A stretch of 32,748 nucleotides of DNA from an uncultured Candidatus Altimarinota bacterium (GTDB lineage Bacteria; Patescibacteriota; Gracilibacteria; BD1-5; UBA6164), in NCBI GenBank assembly GCA_938015455.1, contig CALLPL010000011.1, positions 1-32,748 on the forward strand, read 5' to 3'. This document shows, piece by piece, positions 5,119-25,987 of this stretch; the stretch's first letter is position 1, and each line of letters opens with the position of its first letter. The notes under the pieces are model-generated. The model was given only the letters and a program-made list of their open reading frames with translations, did not search any database and was not told where the DNA came from. The position numbers and the translations under genes are program-made.

Positions 5119-6489
5119 ATGTGCCTGACGAAGAAACTCCTAAGCGGAGTAGTGATCGCGACACTTTCATTTTTTTACTTTCCTTTTTCTGTCTTTGCTA
5201 GTGAGGAAACATCATTTATTATCACAGCCTACTATTCTCCTGTTAAATGACAAGCAAAATATCTTCATGGGAGTTATGAGCGTGAAATATATATAAACGG
5301 AAAAGGAACGCATGGTGCATCTGGAAAAGAAGTATTTGTATGAATGCTTGCTGCACCAAAGAAATACCCTTTTTGAACAAAGATTCATTTCGAATGATAT
5401 TGAGTAGCAGAGGTTCAGGACAGGGGGTGAGCTATTGTTTCAGCTGGAAGTAGAGGAAACAGCTATGATAGAATTGATATTTGGATGTGACATTGAGACG
5501 AAGGAAGAGAGAGGGCTGTTCTCTGGGGTAAGAAAACAATAAAAGGAAAAATAGTAAATTCAGATACTCCTAATTCTCTCAAGTTTGATGAAAAAACTCC
5601 AGTGAATTATCTTTCACTGAGAGTTAACCCCGGCTCCTGACCTACTGACATAAAAAATCTTCAAGAACTCTTTCAAGAAGCAGGACTTTACAGTTGAGCT
5701 GTAGATGGAAACTATGATAGTATCAAGCAAACACTTATAGACTTCCAGCTTGAGCATGATATTATTCCAAGTGCTGATCATGAATCAGCTGGGTATTTTG
5801 GAGCTAAAACTTTGAGTGTTGTTAGCAAAATGATTGAACTCCCACAAGACACTTTGAGCGAAGAAGCACCTCAAAATTTCCATTGAGCAAAGAATCAAGA
5901 AATTACAAAAGGACAAGAGATTCTCATGAATTATGGAGAGTTCAGAGCTAATCCAGAATCCTCAAGAAACGATATACGTAAGCTCCAGGGTCTCCTAAAA
6001 GAACTTTGAAAGTATAATTGAGAGATAGATGGAAATTATAAAAGTGTAGAAAATGACCTGATAACATTTCAAATAGAACTTTGAATTGTTAGAGACAGCA
6101 AAGATTGGTGAGCAGGATACTATGGGAGCCAAACAAGAAGCGTTTTATGGAAACATTATGAAACAGCAGAAATAGATTTGATTCAGAAGCAAGAAGATTC
6201 CGTTCCTGTAGAGAAAGAATCTGTAGTAGAAAATGAAATAGAAGACAAAAAGCAGAAAGTAGAGAAGAAGATCACATCAAGTCATAGACTCTCTTCTACA
6301 GAGAAAACAAAGATCAAGAAGGCTATCTCACTCATAAAAAAAAGACTCCTAAAAGAAGAATCATCAGGAGGAAAATGAATGGAGAGGGTCCTAAATGAAT
6401 TATCTGAACAAATAGAAGAAATACTCCCAAGTATTGATGATCAAGAGCTACTCGCAAAGCTCATTCTCATTAACGAAGAAATCAAATAA
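5119..6489 (+). CDS. exported 3D-domain protein with two peptidoglycan-binding-like repeats (paralogue 1)
   Basis: 456 aa. A signal peptide (MCLTKKLL..., hydrophobic to VFA, cleavage near residue 28) is followed by a 3D (Asp-Asp-Asp) double-psi beta-barrel domain at about 33-150: ITAYYSP, GASGKEVFVGMLAAP, PFGTKI, VQDRGGAI and RIDIWMG with the conserved Asp residues, then AVLWGKK. 3D domains are related to the catalytic barrel of lytic transglycosylases such as MltA. Two PG_binding_1-like repeats follow (about 175-240 and 280-345; LQELFQEAGLYSGAVDGNY and LQGLLKELGKYNGEIDGNY). A Lys/Glu-rich coiled C-terminal region (355-456) is unlike the paralogue. Probably acts on or anchors to cell wall outside the membrane. 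Enzyme activity is not proven by sequence. Confidence 0.88.
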
Positions 6490-6549: not shown

Positions 6550-6619
6550 TAGATGCTCTAGGAAATAGCTTCTTAGATATGCTAGGATATATATGTATTT
6601 ATTTTTATGAACCTATAAT

Positions 6620-7870
6620 ATGAAACGTATTCTTTCCTGAATTCTCATACTCATCATGAGTATCACACTCTTCCCTGCCACACTTTTTGCTCAGCAAGAT
6701 TATTATGTTGTTACAGCGTATTATTCTCCACTCCCTGGCCAAGATTATTATGCAATGGGAAGTTACCATGCAGACATAATCCTTAACTGAGAATGAATTG
6801 CAGGAGCATCAGGACGAAAAGTATTCTCAGGTATGCTTGCAGCTCCTCAAGGCTATGCTTTTGGTACAAAGATTTACCTTGATTGACTCGGAATTGGTTC
6901 TGTAGAGGACCGTTGAGGAGCTATAGTTCCAGCGTGAGAGAGGGGCTTCAAGCATGACCGTATAGATGTATGGATGGGCTATGGTGACGAATGACTTCGT
7001 CGAGCCATGTATTGGGGAAAAAGAACAGTAGCTGGTAATATCGTCAACTGGAATAGTGACACTACTATCAACTACTACAATATACCGACTCCAGCTTGGA
7101 CTGTAGCAGGTTTTAAAAAACAATATTATAATACTGCTCCGACTCCAGTAGTCCCAGCTAAACTTCCAGGAATATTCGAAGTATCACTTGAATCAGGAAG
7201 TAACGCAACTCTCGTATCTAAACTCCAGTCTATTCTCTGAGAGTTATGATACCTAGATGAAGAAGAAAACACTTGAGAGTATGATGAAATAACTCTCGAA
7301 GCTGTATTTCAGTTTCAAGTAGACAGTCAGATCTTAGCAAGCAAAGAAGATGCTTGAGCAGGTCGCTATGGACCAAAAACCAGAGCTGCACTACAAAAGA
7401 GTTATGATGCTCACCTGCAAGAAATTACAAAAAAAGAAACATTTCTCTCTGATTATAAGAAGCTTCAAGAAAGCTCACAAGTAAAAGCTCAAGAGTATAT
7501 AGATAGTCTCTGAACTCCTGAATATGGAGATATATCATCACAGGTTCGAGAACTCCAAAAAACACTTGCGAGATTAGGGTATTTCTCTCATAAAGACACT
7601 GCAATATTTGGAGTAAAAACTCAAAATGCTATCATCGACTACCAGATAGCTCAAAATCTTATACAGAGTTCTAATGATATTGGAGCATGAAAGTTTTGAC
7701 CAAAAACACGCTGAACTATGGTAGAGAGATTCGAAGAGATATATCTAGAAGAAGCTCTAGATTCACAGGGACTACAAGAGGATTTTAATTTGTATATTAA
7801 ACCTAAAGAAACAGTAGCAGAAGAAATTAGTAAAATACTTGATCTCAGTACTCTTTGAATCAGTATTTAA
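6620..7870 (+). CDS. exported 3D-domain protein with two peptidoglycan-binding-like repeats (paralogue 2)
   Basis: 416 aa, a paralogue of the preceding gene. Signal peptide MKRILSGILILIM..., cleavage after LFA near residue 24. The 3D domain at about 29-145 keeps VTAYYSP, GASGRKVFSGMLAAP, FGTKI, VEDRGGAIVPAG, RIDVWMG and YWGKR. A Pro/Tyr/Thr-rich linker (about 148-190) precedes two PG_binding-like repeats (about 195-265 and 305-375), both ending in a GAGxFGPKTR-type motif (GAGRYGPKTR, GAGKFGPKTR). It lacks the long Lys/Glu-rich tail of paralogue 1. Many Gly of the motifs are UGA. Strong terminators flank it on both sides, so it is probably monocistronic. A TATAAT abuts its AUG and is too close to be its -10. 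Confidence 0.88.
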
Positions 7871-12214: not shown

Positions 12215-14015
12215 TATTACTGACATACTTTCTTCCCTGCCCCACGCTCCTGGTGTGTATAAGTTCTATAATCTCTCGTGAGAGATTATTTATATTGGGA
12301 AGTCAAAAAACCTAAAGTCTCGAGTAAACAGCTATTTTTCATGACAACAAAAACTTAACTTCGCAAAAAAGAAGATGGTATGAAAAATATCTAATATAGA
12401 ATACATCGTAACAAATAATGAAACTGAATCTCTCATACTCGAGAACGATCTAGTCAAGAGGCTCCAGCCAAAGTATAATATCCTGCTCAAGGATGATAAA
12501 AACTTTCTCTACCTCAAGATTACAAAAGAGCAGTTCCCACAAATAAGAAAAACGAGAATATCCCCAACTAATATGAAAAAGTATGATGGAAAATACTTTG
12601 GCCCCTATATATCAGGATATCATGTAGAAGAAATACTAAAACTCTTAAAGAAAATTTACGGCTATGGTGTTGGCTCACATAACTTTTTTAAGAAGAAATG
12701 AGCCTATAGCCTCGATAGTTATATATTTGATGGTAACATACAGGCAGATGAGACTGAAATCAGAGAAATATACCTTAAAAAAATTTCTCAAATACAAAAA
12801 TTCCTCTCAGGAAATACACAAGATATAAAAGAAAGCTTGAGGTCTGAGATGTTAGTATTTGCTGAAAAAATGGAGTTTGAGGAAGCACAGAAACGTAAAG
12901 TTTCACTTGAGGCACTTGAGAGTCTAGATACTCTTCAGGTTGTGAGAGATGGAGTGTCTTGAGACTATATAGTTGTTCAGATACTTGAAAAATACGAAAA
13001 TATCTATATAGGAGTGATAGATATAAAGGATTCACGAATTACAGCGTATGAAAACTATGAGGTTGAAAATAAACTCTCAGAACAATGAAAAGATGTACTA
13101 AAAAAGTTTATAGAATGAAAATGGTTGGAAAACAGAGAGAGAAAGAAACTTATATTTCTTGCTCCTGAAAGCTTCAATGAACTCAGTGATATTTGAATAT
13201 CTATAGAAAAACCTCAATTGTGAGCAAAGTTTGATCTCCTAAAACTCTGTTATAAAAACCTCTATGAATATGCCCATAAGAAATATATGGCTAGTCTCTC
13301 AACCAAAGGATTTACTAAAAAGAATATGCAGGACCTGCTTGACCTCTTAGGCTACTGAGCAATAAATAAAGATATTATTTTTGAGTGTAATGATATCTCT
13401 CATCTCTCTTGAAGTCACACAGTTGCAAGTAGGAGTGTAATAGAGAACTGAAAGCCTAACAGTAAAAAATACAAGAAATTCCGAATTAAAACTTTGCAGG
13501 AAGGAAAAATTGATGACTTTGATTCTATGAGAGAGATTATGCAGCGAAGACTCAAAGAACTTGAAAAAATATGAAACTTCCCTGATCTCATAGTCATAGA
13601 TGGGTGAAAATGACAACTTAGCTCTGTAATGGAAATTATAGAAGCATCTGAATTTTTGCAAAAATCAGATCAAAAACTGCAAATTGTATCTCTTGCAAAA
13701 CAAGAAGAAGAGCTCTTTCTTCCTTGAGCTTCAGAGCCAATAGTCCTCGATAAAGAATCTCCTCAGCTCAGGCTCATACAAGCTCTTCGTGATGAAGCTC
13801 ACAGGTTTGCAATAAGCTTTAACAGGGATTCTCGGAGCAAGTCCATGAAGCAAAGCATCCTCGAAGCTATCCCTGGCATTTGACCAGCAACTCGCAAGAA
13901 AATACTCAAAACCTTTGGAAGTGTTGAATGACTCCAAAAGGCAGAAAAAAAAGAACTCCAAAGAGTCCTATGAAAGTCGGTTATTGAGAATCTAGAAAAT
14001 CATGGGATTACTTAG
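12204..14015 (+). CDS. uvrC: UvrABC excinuclease subunit C
   Basis: 603 aa, normal length. Makes the two incisions around a bulky lesion after UvrB loading. The GIY-YIG nuclease is at 15-95 (GVYKFYNLSG, IIYIGKSKNLKSRVNSYF). The UvrB-binding UVR motif is EKMEFEEAQKRK (near 225). The RNase H-like second nuclease is at about 390-480 (FECNDISHLSGSHTVAS, DDFDSMREIMQRRL, VIDGGKGQL). A tandem helix-hairpin-helix ends the protein (ILEAIPGIGPATRKKILKTF). UGA sits on Gly in SGE, DGGKGQ and PGIG. The N-terminus overlaps the PH-like gene by 11 nt and the C-terminus overlaps the convergent phosphatase gene by 8 nt. Confidence 0.97.
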
Positions 14016-14559
14016 AATATCTAAGAATTTCTCGAATAGAAGAGCCGTTAATACATCCGTAATTTATAGCTTCAAGCAAAGCTCAAAGGTTTCATTTTTG
14101 TCAGGTCATAATTTGGTACATAGCTATTACCATTCCTGTTCTTACTTGTCACTTCTTACAATGAACTAAGATTTGGTTGTCATTATTTTCCTCTAACTTT
14201 AAAATTAATTCAACTATCTCCCTACATCTTTCTTGAGTTAGTTCCTTTCTTAAATTAAAAGGAAAATGATGAAAGTTCATATCATTAAACCATGGGTAAA
14301 AATTTTCTGCTCTGTTACTCCAAGTTATATTATCAACAAGAGAAATAATGTGGTTAATTCATCTTTTTTTTACAGCTAATACTGCTGACGGATAGATAAA
14401 ATCACTCCTGTGTAATTGTTCTGATACTTGATAGAACCTTCTAGGGAGCCCCTCTTTTTTTCAATCAATTTCCATCCAATCTTCTGGACATGGTACTGGA
14501 TCTTGTTTCATTTCAGGTGATACATCTGAGGGGGGAAAGTATTGTACAATGTTTGCCAT
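14008..14559 (-). CDS. protein tyrosine / dual-specificity phosphatase-like protein
   Basis: 183 aa. The cysteine-phosphatase loop is clear: ILVHCKKGQVRTG, with nucleophile Cys134 and Arg140 (HCx5R), followed by a GMVIAMYQIM helix as in dual-specificity phosphatases. Upstream, INHIISLVDN (68-77) and FHHFPFNLRKE (97-107) match the strand and general-acid-loop region, although an obvious general-acid Asp is not placed and Asp93 is the nearest candidate. The N-terminal 40 residues are Pro-rich and unlike the family. Substrate (phosphoprotein, inositol phosphate or RNA 5' end) cannot be told. The start is 21 nt after the stop of the 71-aa gene. Confidence 0.8.
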
Positions 14560-14858: not shown

Positions 14859-14890
14859 CAAAATAATATTTGGATATAACTTTACGGATT

Positions 14891-15418
14891 GTGAAAGACC
14901 TGTTTCAGAACTATCATCGTTACAAAATACTAAAACATTTAGGTATATTTTCTATAAGTATTGTCCTAGCTCTGAGTATAAATATGTTTCTATTAGGTGG
15001 AAAAACAGGTGAGTATTTAAAGGCAAATGTACTTGAGTGAGCAGGATCACAAAACGCAACTGCAGACTTTACTGTGAAGTCTGACGGAACTACTCTCAGT
15101 TTTCATAATTCTAAGCTTATGAATCAGGTTACAGAACTGAGCTTTTCTATAAGCTATGATCCAGAGCTATGAGACCCTAGTGAAGTAAAAACCCCTCTTG
15201 CATGATGAGATATTACTGAAATATCTAACCAGGCAGGATTTTCTACATACCTTATAAACTTTAGCTCTGCTACTGATATTTTAGAAGACTCTCCTATAGC
15301 AAGTACTGTATTTAATAAAATTTTAGAGGATACCGTCCATTTAAATGTGATGAATGTTAATTTCAAGGACCTAGATGGAGAAACCTATTTGCTCTCGAGT
15401 TCTTGAACTATGTTTTAG
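14891..15418 (+). CDS. membrane-anchored exported protein of unknown function
   Basis: 175 aa with a GUG start. A basic N-terminus (KDLFQNYHRYKILKH) and one hydrophobic segment at about 18-37 (LGIFSISIVLALSINMFLLG) act as signal anchor; the rest should be outside the membrane. The external part is rich in beta-type residues (ADFTVKSDGTTLSFHN, ELSFSISYDPELGDP, FSTYLINFSS, VHLNVMNVNFKDLDG), reminiscent of cohesin-like or other Ig-like folds that contain a SISYDPE strand. This resemblance is weak. No catalytic motif is seen. It ends 1 nt before tatD, so the pair is co-transcribed. Confidence 0.75.
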
Positions 15419-15419
15419 C

Positions 15420-16235
15420 ATGATGTACGATACTCATTGTCATCCCTATCTTGCAAAAGAAAAATCTCAAAATCTGATTCTTGAGAATTTTTTTTGATCT
15501 GGGTGAGAGTACCTTAATTGTATAGCTGTTGATATACAAAGTTCTAGAGTATCTATTGATCTTTCTAAGAAATACTCAGGAGTACAAGCAGTTATATGAA
15601 TTCATCCAACTCATTGCCTCGAATATAAATGAGCGCTAGAGAAAACAATAGAGGATTTAGAACTCTTATATAAAACTCATTCTCAGCATATAGTTGCTAT
15701 AGGTGAATGCTGACTTGATTACCATTGGTTACAAAGTCTTTCAGAGAAATATGCACTTCCTAAACAGGAGATCATAACTATCCAGAAAGAGTTTTTTAAG
15801 GCCCAGATCAATCTAGCAAAGAAATTAAAACTTCCTATCGTTATACACAATAGAAATGCTTCTGAAGACGTATTTCTGCTGCTCCAAGAGTCATGATTTA
15901 AAAACTTTGTATTTCACTGCTTCAGTGAGGGTTATGACTTTGCAATGAAGCTTATTAACTTTGCTCCTGAGTGTAAACTCTGATTTTGAGGTATTGTTAC
16001 ATTTAATAGTGCCCTTAAAATCCAAGAGGCTGCTGCTAAGATTCCACTTAAGAATATCCTAGTCGAAACAGATAGTCCTTATCTCACTCCTGCTCCTCAT
16101 AGAGGAAAACAAGAAAACGAACCTCTATATGTTCGTCATGTTCTTGATAAAATTATTGATTTAAGAGATGAAAGTCCTGAAGAGATAGAAAGAGAAATTT
16201 TTGAGAATAGTAAAAAATTATTTACTAAAAAATAA
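15420..16235 (+). CDS. tatD: TatD-family metal-dependent deoxyribonuclease
   Basis: 271 aa, family length. Amidohydrolase-fold 3'-5' exonuclease acting on DNA, and on RNA in some members. Metal ligands are all visible: DTHCHPYL (HxH near residue 6), IGIHPTHCLEYKG, IGECGLDYH (Glu near 100), PIVIHNRNA (His near 143), FVFHCFSEG (His near 169) and VETDSPYL (Asp near 220), then LTPAPHRGKQENEP as in the family. UGA codes Gly in IGIHP and ECGLDYH. It lies 1 nt after the anchored-protein gene and 57 nt before the RNB ribonuclease, together with which it may form a nucleic-acid-degrading block. Confidence 0.95.
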
Positions 16236-16292
16236 TTTCTTATTTTGTAAATATTTATTATTATCTATAGTAATAAATGATAATTATCTAAT

Positions 16293-17846
16293 GTGTCAAT
16301 AGTAGTAATTTGATGAAAAGATATAAATCTTCCAAAACCCCTTACGAGTTTCCCCAAAAGACATCCTAAAAAAGTTCGTAATGAAGCAAGGAATGTACAG
16401 GGTTTATTACAAGATATACTAAATAAGGAAGAAAGGAACTGAAGAAGAGATGTTTCTTGAATAACTATAGATAAGGCTGAGGCTGAATGTCTAGATGATG
16501 GTATTTCCGTGGAAAAAACACAAAACTGATATACAGTGCAAGTCTCTATTGCTGACCCTACTCAATTAGCACAACCTGGAAGTTTATTGTTTTGAGAAGC
16601 TTTAAAGAGAATGACCAGCATATATATATGAAATGTACAAGCCTATCATATGTTTCCTCGAGAGATATCTACAGACGCTGGCTCTCTTAATCATAACAAG
16701 AATAGATTAACTCTAACAATTGAAGCAAGAATAAATAATAACTTTGAAGTAGAATGAATTGATATCTTTCCATCAATCTTTTATAATAAGTCTCGAACAA
16801 ATCATAAGGCATTTCAGCAAGACTTCATAAATACGGCTTCATGAAAATATGAGGAATATGCAATTATGCATGAACTTGCAAGATGACTATTCCAAGTGAG
16901 AGGTGCAGAAGAAAGGATAAGGCACTTTAATGATATTGATAGAAGAATAATAGTTGGAGAAAGAATCTTGTGACACTCTAATTCTCACATAGCTAGCTTT
17001 ATTATAGAGGAATTTATGGTACTTGCTAATAGCGAGATTGCAAAATTCTGTAAGACTGAATGATTTCCATGAGTTTATAGAGTTCATATGCCAGATCATA
17101 CCTGATCAAAGCTACCAAAACATGTAGAAAGTGCATATTACAGTACAAAGGCACTTTCTCATCTTGCATTATGAGTAAATTCTTACTCTCACTTTACATC
17201 CCCCTTAAGGAGAATGGCTGATTTTTTCCTTCATATGAATTTATTAGCACATTTATGTAAAAAGGATCTACCAATAAACAGTATAAATCTTGAAGTTCTT
17301 ATTAATCATTTAAACAGAGCCCTAGAATTAATGATTATTGCGCAAAGACAAGAACTTGTAAATATGAATTGACTAAGGGTAATGAGAAAACATGAAAGAA
17401 AAAAAGCCAATTGAGAGGCAGATTGAAATATGAATTGAATACTAGATCATGTACAGTATGTAACAGGGAGAAGAAATTTAGTTCTCTCAGAAGTTGTGAG
17501 AAAAGATATGATTAAACAGATGCAAAGTGAAGAAAAAATCAATGGGAACTATATTGAACGTTTTTTATTTTCTAAAGAAAAGGAAATAATTATGGAGCTA
17601 AGGGATAGAATAATGGCAGATCCATTTACTTCAAGATATATATCGATATTCCAATCTACCTGAAGAATTACAATAAAGCAGCATAATAACAAAAAGTGAG
17701 TAGATGATAAGGGATATAAAATTACTATAAGTATTAAGGGTGAAGCCAGTAGGACTTTTTCAAAAGGGTGAAAGACACAAGCTAGAAAGCATGCTTATGC
17801 CTATATATTTGATAGTGTATTAAGTAGATTTGATAGTAATGAGTAA
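16293..17846 (+). CDS. RNB-domain (RNase II/R-family) ribonuclease with C-terminal dsRBD-like segment
   Basis: 517 aa, GUG start (UAA lies four codons upstream and no AUG is in frame). RNB enzymes degrade RNA 3'-5' to nucleotide monophosphates. The catalytic domain is at about 50-350: ITIDKAEAECLDDGI (57-71), SIADPTQLAQPGS, MFPREIST and SYSHFTSPLRRMADF near 297-311. Compared with E. coli RNase II, Asp201, Asp209 and Asp210 are kept (Asp60, 68, 69), but the position of Asp207 is Cys66. The cold-shock and S1 domains of RNase II/R are missing. The last ~55 residues (YKITISIKGEASRTF, SKGGKTQARKHAYAYIFD) resemble a double-stranded RNA-binding domain. The nucleotidase gene overlaps its end by 8 nt. 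Confidence 0.85.
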
Positions 17847-18624
17847 TCTCCTTAAATGACATACTCCACAAAATTCCTTTAATACTATAGATGCAGACAG
17901 ATGTATTTTTGAATGAACCCCCTGATGTGAAACAGCTTTTTGAGTGTTTTCAAGAGCACATCCAGGAAATAATATAAAAGAAGAGGCATCGGAGCTATTT
18001 CAACATTATTATAAGATTGAAATGGATATTCATATATCTGGTGCCGAAAAATTAGAGCACATGAAGGTATGGAATAAATTAGCATTAGCTATTTTATGAA
18101 AATATATTAATGAAGATCAATTCGAAAAAACTCTGGAATACGCAAGAAAAAATCTTCGAATCAGAGGATGAATGCAAAAATATTTTCAAGATAGCTACAA
18201 CTTATGAATACCTACAATAGTCTTCTCTGCTTGAGTAAGCAACGTCATAGAAGCTGTTCTGGAAGCTAATGAAATGCCATATACTACGGTTCATTCAAAC
18301 AAGTTAGGATTTGTGGATGGAAAGCTTCAACTTTTAAACGAAGGAGTATATATCTGAAACAAAGGCTGGATATCTCTTCCTGAAGAATTGAGAAAAAGTG
18401 TTAGCCAAAGAACGCACCAACTTGTAATTTGAGATTCTATCGATGATATACATATGTGAGATCCTGATAGAATTAGAAGTAATATATGATTCCTAAACTC
18501 TGAACAAATAGAAAAGTGAAATAGGGATAAATATAAACGTCTATTTGATCATGTTGAAGAGTCTGATACTTCTGATAATTGACTACTATTAGAACTCATC
18601 AGAGAGTTGGCAATGGCTGTATAA
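17839..18624 (+). CDS. pyrimidine 5'-nucleotidase, UMPH-1 (cytosolic 5'-nucleotidase III) family, HAD fold
   Basis: 261 aa. The family dephosphorylates pyrimidine nucleoside monophosphates (UMP, CMP); it is best known from eukaryotes. Seen: HAD motif I FNTIDADRCIF with Asp18/Asp20, the cap segment HYYKIEMD near 57, LRIRGGMQKYF, motif II GIPTIVFSAGVSNVIEAVL near 126-144, VHSNKLGFVDG, IGNKG (equivalent to the conserved NK), and motif III/IV LVIGDSIDDIHMGD near 199-212 followed by IGFLN. All are in family order. UGA codes the Gly of SAGV and of GDS. The start lies inside the end of the RNB gene (8-nt overlap), so the two are translationally coupled; an RNase making NMPs next to an NMP phosphatase suggests salvage. 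Confidence 0.88.
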
Positions 18625-23862: not shown

Positions 23863-24390
23863 ATGGACATATTTACTACAGAAATAATATGACAGGCAAT
23901 AGGTTTTATAGCACTATTCTTTGTCTTTTTAGCTTTTAAGGAAACCAATGATAGAAAGCTTATTGTCTATCTCGCTATAGGTTCTGGTATTTGGGGAATA
24001 CACTTTTCGCTTATATGACTCATTGCTGCTGCTGCTGTAAATTTCTTCGACGTTGGAAAAAATCTTATTTGACTCAAGTATGAAAAAAATAATTACTGGG
24101 TTAGTTTTTTTATTGTAAGTTATCTCATTATTTGAATATTTACTTATAACCATACTTGAAATATAGCTTCATTTCTCCCTACGCTTTCTTCTATTATATG
24201 AGCAGTAGCTGTGTTCTGGTTTCGGTGAATACCTCTTAGACTTCTTCTCTTATCAACACTTTGAATCTGGCTTATCTATAATCTCATTGGTGGGTCATAT
24301 GCTTGAATAGCTTCTGATATAGCGCTCACTTGAGCTACGCTTTATGGTATATATAAACTCAAATATAATCCTGAAAAATCGTCTTCATAG
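23863..24390 (+). CDS. YgjV-like membrane protein (tandem copy 1)
   Basis: 175 aa with about six membrane helices. YgjV (Imp-YgjV) is an inner-membrane family of unknown function. Family-like features: GQAIGFIALFFVFLAFKETN at the start, the GSGIWGIHFSLIG segment (compare WLAHF and WGAHF in copies 2 and 3), a middle LPTLSSIIGAVAVFWFRGIPLRLLLL and a late WLIYNLIGGSYAGIASDIAL. These recur at equivalent places in the two next genes, which shows tandem duplication. It starts 3 nt after dedA, so it is co-transcribed with it. UGA-Gly is heavily used. Confidence 0.8.
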
Positions 24391-24420
24391 AGGTAAAATA
24401 TAAGATCTTCAAAAAAAGTT

Positions 24421-24448
24421 TTGGAGAAATCTGAAACTGTTCTATACT
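24421..24448 (+). promoter_or_regulatory. promoter of YgjV-like copy 2
   Basis: TTGGAG and TATACT are separated by 16 nt, giving a leader of about 26 nt. It lies in the 90-nt gap between copies 1 and 2. No terminator is seen in the gap. Confidence 0.45.
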
Positions 24449-24480
24449 CCGAGAAATTTACATAATAATTTCTTTCTGCA

Positions 24481-25125
24481 ATGACATTTTTGTTTCCTCT
24501 TTTTGAGAAAGGGGTTTCTTTATTTATGGAGAATCCACTTGGTCAAAGTCTTGGTTTTATTGCAATGTTTATCCTCTTTTATGGTTTCGCATTAAAAGAT
24601 GATAGACAAGTAGTAAAAGTTTTAATTGTTTCAAATATTTTTTGGTTAGCACACTTTCTCATGATTGATAATCTATGAGCCTTACTTGCTACAGCTATTG
24701 CCATGCTGCGTCTTTATCTCTCTCTCAAATACAAGGGGAGCATGAATGCTATGGCTTTTGTGACAATAGCCTGTCTTGTTTCAGGGATTATAGCTTATGA
24801 ACAGCCAGTATCAATTCTCCCTATTGTCTGAACAATAGCAGCTTCATACGGATTCTTCTTCCTTGAAAAAGTTCCCCTTCGTATGCTCCTCCTACTCGTA
24901 TCATCTATGTGGCTCGTATACCACCTCGAAACTGGTTCTATATCAGGAGTTATTAATGAAATAATCGTTACTATTACCCTGCTTATAACTATCTATAGAT
25001 TCAATTATAGTGAAGAAAAGTCTATCTATCTCAAAAATAGTATTAAAAATATCCTCAAAAAGAGGCCACGACGTGTTGATTTGTGACGATATATGTATTT
25101 AAGAGATTCTAATAGATTTAAATAG
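24481..25125 (+). CDS. YgjV-like membrane protein (tandem copy 2)
   Basis: 214 aa, about six membrane helices. It repeats the layout of its neighbours: GQSLGFIAMFILFYGFALKDD, NIFWLAHFLMIDNLGALLA, an SILPIVGTIAASYGFFFLEK core and MWLVYHLETGSISGVINEII. The tail is basic (KNILKKRPRRVDLGRYMYL), which is longer than copy 1 and aligns with the tail of copy 3 up to the position of the UGA that copy 3 now reads through. The start (AUG) is preceded by a promoter but no Shine-Dalgarno sequence. Internal Met at residue 16 is an alternative start. Confidence 0.8.
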
Positions 25126-25133
25126 ATTCATAT

Positions 25134-25162
25134 TTGACAAATTAACTAATTAATGATTTAAT
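25134..25162 (+). promoter_or_regulatory. promoter of YgjV-like copy 3
   Basis: A perfect TTGACA is followed after 17 nt by TTTAAT, leaving a leader of about 24 nt before the AUG at 25193. The region is almost pure A and T. Confidence 0.55.
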
Positions 25163-25192
25163 TATATTAATAATAATTAATTTATCACAGTT

Positions 25193-25987
25193 ATGTTTAT
25201 TGTAGAGTATCTCAGCTACTTTATAGAGTATATCCTCAGAGATCCTTTCACGCAAGTAACAGGATTCATGGGTATGGCTGTAATTCTCACAGCATATTTT
25301 CAAAAAGAAGACTGTAATGTTAAAAAACTCATGATCTTATCTTCATTTTTTTGGGGAGCACACTTCTACCTTTTAGGTATGTATTCAGGTCTTGCTGCGA
25401 TTATTATCTGGGTTGTTCGTATTTTCTTTTCGATGAAGTGGCAAAAAAGCAAAAATGCTTTTTCTGCAATTATAGTCATCACTCTTGTGACTTGATATTT
25501 TACCTATGACTGATTTATGTCACTTCTGCCTATTGTCACTTCCCTGACCTGAGCATACGCATTCTTCTTTCTTGAGAAAATAAAACTTCGTGTTGTTATG
25601 CTCTTTAACTCTGCTACGTGGCTTATATATAATGGTTTTATATGATCTGTGAGTTGAGTGCTCAATGAGAGTTTTGCACAGATTATCCTCATAATGACTA
25701 TATACCGGATGATGCATCCAGAATGAGGCAGTCATTACTATGTAAATAAAGTTCGTGATATCCTTTGGAAAACGAGCCATCCTGACTATGATAGGTTCAT
25801 CTTTATTCGGGACAAGGTGTCCTGCTACCGAAATAGTATATGAACGAACTTCCAAAAGATCTTGCACTACGACTTGAGAGCATATTTCTGAAACCAGAAA
25901 TGAAAACTATCAAATCTGCATTTACTCAGGAAAAAAGAGCCGTGAGTTTTAGAGTGAACACTCAAAAGTCTTCATGTGAAGAAATAG
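25193..25987 (+). CDS. YgjV-like membrane protein (tandem copy 3) with read-through C-terminal extension
   Basis: 264 aa under table 25. The first ~216 residues are a third YgjV copy: QVTGFMGMAVILTAYFQKED, FFWGAHFYLLGMYSGLAA, SLLPIVTSLTGAYAFFFLEK, TWLIYNGFIGSVSGVLNESF, and a basic tail ending RFIFIRDKVSCYRNSI. The next codon is UGA at 25841, which forms an ATGA stop-start overlap with the rsmB-like gene. Because UGA is Gly here, translation runs 48 residues further to UAG at 25985, in a different frame over the start of that gene (148-nt overlap). The extension is basic and has no visible domain. Copy 2 ends close to the equivalent of the UGA, which suggests the extension arose through recoding. 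Confidence 0.78.

Follow-up and report, generated by a model that had tools for sequence, protein, structure and literature searches.

The window analyzed here is a 32,748-nt stretch of DNA that constitutes contig 11 of the 1.33-Mb assembly of an uncultured Candidatus Altimarinota bacterium (lineage Gracilibacteria; 91% complete, genetic code 25; denoted G000, with other sampled genomes given G-labels and fetched loci L-labels). On its plus strand, three consecutive genes encode a TatD-family metal-dependent nuclease (positions 15420–16235, start approximate; PF01026, TIGR00010), a divergent second RNB-domain 3'-5' exoribonuclease, hereafter RNB2 (16293–17846; PF00773), and a nucleotidase of the UMPH-1 (cN-III/HAD) family (17839–18624; PF05822). 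All three reading frames are open only under code 25, in which TGA is read as glycine; under that code they are intact and score well above the curated Pfam cut-offs, which confirms the three-gene arrangement noted in a preliminary description of this locus. A gap of 57 nt separates TatD from RNB2, and the UMPH-1 start codon (ATG, 17839) lies upstream of the RNB2 stop codon (TAA, 17844–17846), such that the reported 8-nt overlap is present as ATGAGTAA at 17839–17846 on the plus strand. The block had been placed from position 14891 onward, where the first gene in fact encodes a small protein (14870–15418, plus strand) with one N-terminal hydrophobic segment that is pilin-like or membrane-anchored and falls outside the pair proposed below. 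This small protein matched no Pfam family, and homologs occupy the same position upstream of TatD in L117, L122 and L134.

Does TatD belong with the two genes that follow it? The protein is an ordinary member of the TatD-family DNases (PF01026, E = 7e-66; full match to TIGR00010, 222.8 bits against a cut-off of 206), and it sits in a wider conserved neighborhood. The window's genome and G024 share the longer order exoA, membrane protein, UvrC, phosphatase, pilin-like protein, TatD, RNB2 and UMPH-1. Two further genomes (G119 and G186) carry the pilin-like, TatD and RNB2 genes without an adjoining UMPH-1, and in G172 and G175 the RNB2–UMPH-1 pair is found elsewhere, away from TatD. For this reason TatD and the pair are separable, and the earlier inclusion of TatD in the block is not supported. 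A phosphatase encoded at 14008–14559 (minus strand) is of the dual-specificity/tyrosine type (PF22784, E = 3.9e-8) and occupies the same place in G024. Assignment of TatD to QatD of the Qat defense system was rejected at 55 bits against an equivalog cut-off of 230; PADLOC gave no match among the other three proteins of the block, and its defense models miss RNB2 and UMPH-1. Elsewhere in the window, two tandem related proteins with a signal-like N-terminus (5119–6489 and 6593–7870) resemble, by eye, 3D-domain, peptidoglycan-binding enzymes, and three successive alike small membrane proteins (23863–25987) are apparently tandem duplicates.

The RNB protein of the window is distinct from the housekeeping RNase R. 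Of the two RNB proteins in G000, one is a full RNase R whose gene lies on contig 36 (350 bits); the other is RNB2 in the window (137 + 37 bits). RNB2 matches PF00773 at E = 1.3e-51 (176 bits against a cut-off of 29.3) and falls below the RNase R equivalog TIGR02063 (172.9 against 597.85 bits). With RNase R and RNase II it shares the RNB core, the aspartate motif and a TSPxRR motif, and RNase R is a structural match with a Z-score of about 12. RNB2 differs from RNase R in that neither cold-shock nor S1 domains were found, positions ~231–278 of the RNB profile are unmatched, and the C-terminus is of another kind. Reading of the hit list from an order-wide search placed RNB2 in 24 of the 77 genomes surveyed; most members are ~510 residues long and have in common the RNB core followed by a distinct C-terminus, with RNB the sole Pfam domain shared across 18 aligned members. 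In a survey of 145 genomes of the class, RNB-family exonucleases were found in 20, nearly all of them in the window's order; RNase R appears to be missing from most of the class.

Alignment of the 18 RNB2 proteins reveals that three of the four active-site aspartates are present in the window protein (D60, D68 and D69), while the fourth position is Cys66, encoded by a TGT codon (16488–16490, plus strand) that is two changes from GAT. An aspartate occupies this position in 17 of the 18 proteins, it is intact in the other three genomes that carry the pair, and the family as a whole has all four residues. The substitution of a conserved aspartate makes the activity of the window copy uncertain. 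The AlphaFold model of RNB2, built from three sequences, was poor overall (pLDDT 47.8), and only its C-terminus was interpreted, with caution. Residues 430–514 (17577–17834, plus strand) have local pLDDT values of mostly ~70–85 and are predicted to form a helix-strand-strand-strand-helix arrangement as in a double-stranded RNA-binding domain (dsRBD). The best structural match is the third dsRBD of ADAR1 at Z = 6.5, a value below 8 that may reflect no more than a common arrangement, and a Pfam scan of the 18 members gave no match to a dsRNA-binding domain. We therefore describe this region only tentatively as dsRBD-like. RNB2 has a DEAD-box RNA helicase gene as a near neighbor, a few kb away at most and in varying orientation, in six other genomes (L128:3292–4560, L129:8575–9834, L130:102–1361, L132:3144–4394, L134:9107–10378 and L135:2252–3964), which agrees with a role for RNB2 in RNA turnover.

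The second protein of the pair matches PF05822 with E = 1.6e-30 (106.9 bits against a cut-off of 23.7). UMPH-1 had been characterized as mainly a eukaryotic family, which is misleading here given its occurrence in 37 of the 77 genomes of the order and 28 of the 145 of the class. The best solved relatives of the window protein are the m7GMP-preferring cN-IIIB nucleotidases, which hydrolyze CMP and UMP as well (PMC9144445). UMPH-1 resembles cN-IIIB/IIIA (PDB 4nv0 and 7zee) in its HAD motifs, in a cap helix with a base-stacking tryptophan and in a Phe-Gly slot. The HAD residues D18, D20, S130, K175, D199 and D203 (acidic GDSxxD) are invariant in all four RNB2-linked proteins, as are Phe34 and Trp78, which would stack the base. 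In Drosophila cN-IIIB the base slot is formed by Phe-Gly-Trp-Trp (PMC3946280), whereas the second slot tryptophan is replaced by Asn or His in the linked proteins; moreover, the window copy has a motif I Thr-to-Cys change, and the protein is bacterial and encoded beside an exonuclease gene. The AlphaFold model of UMPH-1 (three sequences, mean pLDDT 40) was poor and was left unused.

UMPH-1 lies directly 3' of RNB2 in four genomes (G000, G024, G172 and G175) that represent two genera and two genomic settings, with junctions of -8 (the overlap in the window), +2, +2 and +7 nt. The pair is thus not unique to the window's genome. The four linked UMPH-1 proteins form a separate clade (support 100/99) that is divergent from other UMPH-1 proteins, and every member of that clade is directly behind RNB2. 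Their RNB2 partners, on the other hand, fall in two clades, with a single clade rejected at p-AU = 1.5e-94. Between G000 and G024, same-position genes of the shared locus are 73% (exoA), 55% (UvrC) and ~62–63% (TatD) identical, whereas the RNB2 proteins are only 30% identical, and RNB2 of G024 groups with that of G014 (54% identity), apart from the window protein. Replacement of the nuclease with retention of its partner would produce such a discrepancy, and the simplest account of these trees is that the link apparently outlived an in-place replacement of the nuclease while UMPH-1 stayed. A one-clade UMPH-1 beside a two-clade RNB2 suggests selection for the pairing, or functional coupling. 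Both window proteins have long branches (1.2–1.3), which is a caveat on the trees; together with the lost aspartate in RNB2 and the motif I cysteine in UMPH-1, these branches indicate that the window copies may be weakened. There is no general co-occurrence of the two families, with UMPH-1 in 10 of 24 genomes with RNB2 and 27 of 53 without (Fisher p = 0.47), and in the genomes sampled the pair is limited to a single UMPH-1 clade spanning two genera. The fetched flanks of UMPH-1 relatives in uncultured Bacilli contained no RNB2-like gene, and a literature search returned no paper linking RNase R-type enzymes with UMPH-1.

The preliminary description regarded these genes as suited to bacteria that lack nucleotide synthesis, and named complete de novo pyrimidine synthesis as evidence that would count against it. 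Family searches, together with two fetched stretches, located a fused PyrF-PyrE, PyrB, PyrC and PyrD in one cluster in G000, with the same cluster in G024. The pathway is therefore largely there, which counts against the description on its own terms: carbamoyl-phosphate synthase was the only component not found in G000 by these searches, and G024 additionally has CarB. In the fusion the decarboxylase comes first and the phosphoribosyltransferase second (L143:3980–5398 on contig 4 of G000, and L144:14436–15854). Most genes for purine and pyrimidine synthesis have been reported from another Gracilibacterium (PMC6851277), so the pathway in G000 is not unique, and the picture of this organism as a pyrimidine auxotroph is corrected. 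No convincing dihydroorotate dehydrogenase was found in G172 or G175. Across the 77 genomes, UMPH-1 shows no association with dihydroorotate dehydrogenase (p = 0.43) and no significant association with CMP kinase; RNB2 and dihydroorotate dehydrogenase gave p = 0.04, uncorrected for multiple tests and relatedness. UMPH-1 tracks neither RNB2 nor pyrimidine auxotrophy. CMP kinase (PF02224) was undetected in all four pair genomes and in most of the order, with or without UMPH-1. Nucleoside kinases had also been proposed as a check, and uridine kinase (PF00485) was undetected in all four pair genomes and found in 2 of 11 genomes tested in the order, so nucleosides produced by the pair could not be reused by that route.

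What, then, would the pair do? The reading we favor, though with slightly less than even confidence, is that RNB2 and UMPH-1 act as a two-step system, cytosolic and translationally coupled, in which RNA decay is followed by dephosphorylation of the resulting nucleoside monophosphates (NMPs). RNB2, as an extra RNase R-like exonuclease, would degrade RNA 3' to 5' into 5'-mononucleotides, and its C-terminus may hold structured RNA. The cN-III-type phosphatase would then strip some of these of their 5'-phosphate, with CMP, UMP and/or modified NMPs such as m7GMP the likeliest substrates, and the products would exit the nucleotide pool as nucleosides. We infer that both enzymes would act on the same RNA and with these substrates, and that the purpose would be disposal or homeostasis rather than feeding. 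In a cell able to phosphorylate NMPs, dephosphorylation is a loss except where the NMPs are in excess or of no use to the cell. CMP kinase and uridine kinase were undetected and the nucleotidase resembles the m7GMP/CMP type, so disposal of CMP or modified NMPs released by RNA decay fits better than scavenging; the pyrimidine operon in two of the four pair genomes is also consistent with disposal. Against a coupled system are its restriction to four genomes and the absence of CMP kinase from many genomes of the order, whether UMPH-1 is present or not.

The strongest competing explanation, which we consider unlikely, is that the two genes are neighbors with no joint function, UMPH-1 serving in pyrimidine overflow and lying behind RNB2 by inheritance. 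Across the order, UMPH-1 and RNB2 genes mostly occur unlinked, the linked ones come from two related genera, and overflow is an established role of another HAD phosphatase, E. coli UmpH (NagD; PMC8475336). The clearing of surplus UMP-type nucleotides as nucleosides is likewise a feature of the system proposed here, but UmpH belongs to HAD subfamily IIA and, despite its name, not to the UMPH-1 family. We know of no coupling of E. coli UmpH to a nuclease. Inheritance alone accommodates less readily the tight junctions kept by all members of the clade in two settings and beside RNB2 partners of different clades.

A second possibility is the one originally advanced, in which TatD, RNB2 and UMPH-1 digest host or prey nucleic acid to nucleosides for a cell that cannot make nucleotides. 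Gracilibacteria have been portrayed as reliant on a host and restricted in nucleotide synthesis (PMC11452946). A chain from RNA through NMPs to nucleosides is plausible from the enzyme families and the pair recurs, so that this interpretation is partly supported. Feeding on such RNA is nonetheless improbable: G000 encodes the pyrimidine enzymes listed above, inspection of the three proteins revealed no obvious export signal, UMPH-1 is no more frequent where dihydroorotate dehydrogenase is lacking, and TatD is unlinked from the pair in two of the four genomes. Moreover, intracellular 5'-NMPs would be directly usable, and their conversion to nucleosides would be wasteful; no PF00485 kinase was detected in the pair genomes. 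Could the phosphatase instead act not on free mononucleotides but on the ends of RNA or oligonucleotides, opening substrates to RNB2? Its coupling to a 3'-5' exonuclease, the divergence of the linked clade and the Asn or His in the second slot would be compatible with this idea, yet the stacking Phe and Trp and the HAD motifs match those of mononucleotidases, and we regard end-processing as improbable.

A more specific form of the two-step system, in which RNA decay precedes NMP dephosphorylation, is speculative and in our estimate quite unlikely as a whole. In this dedicated module, as structured RNA is turned over, an RNB enzyme with a dsRBD-like tail would supply a cN-IIIB-type phosphatase with modified or otherwise unusable NMPs for removal: m7GMP or, in genomes lacking CMP kinase, CMP. 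The nuclease could be exchanged, whereas the phosphatase would be retained. If the proposed pairing is right, it would provide a bacterial case in which gene organization ties RNA decay to elimination of the monophosphates it yields, and bacterial relatives of cN-IIIB would gain a role open to testing.
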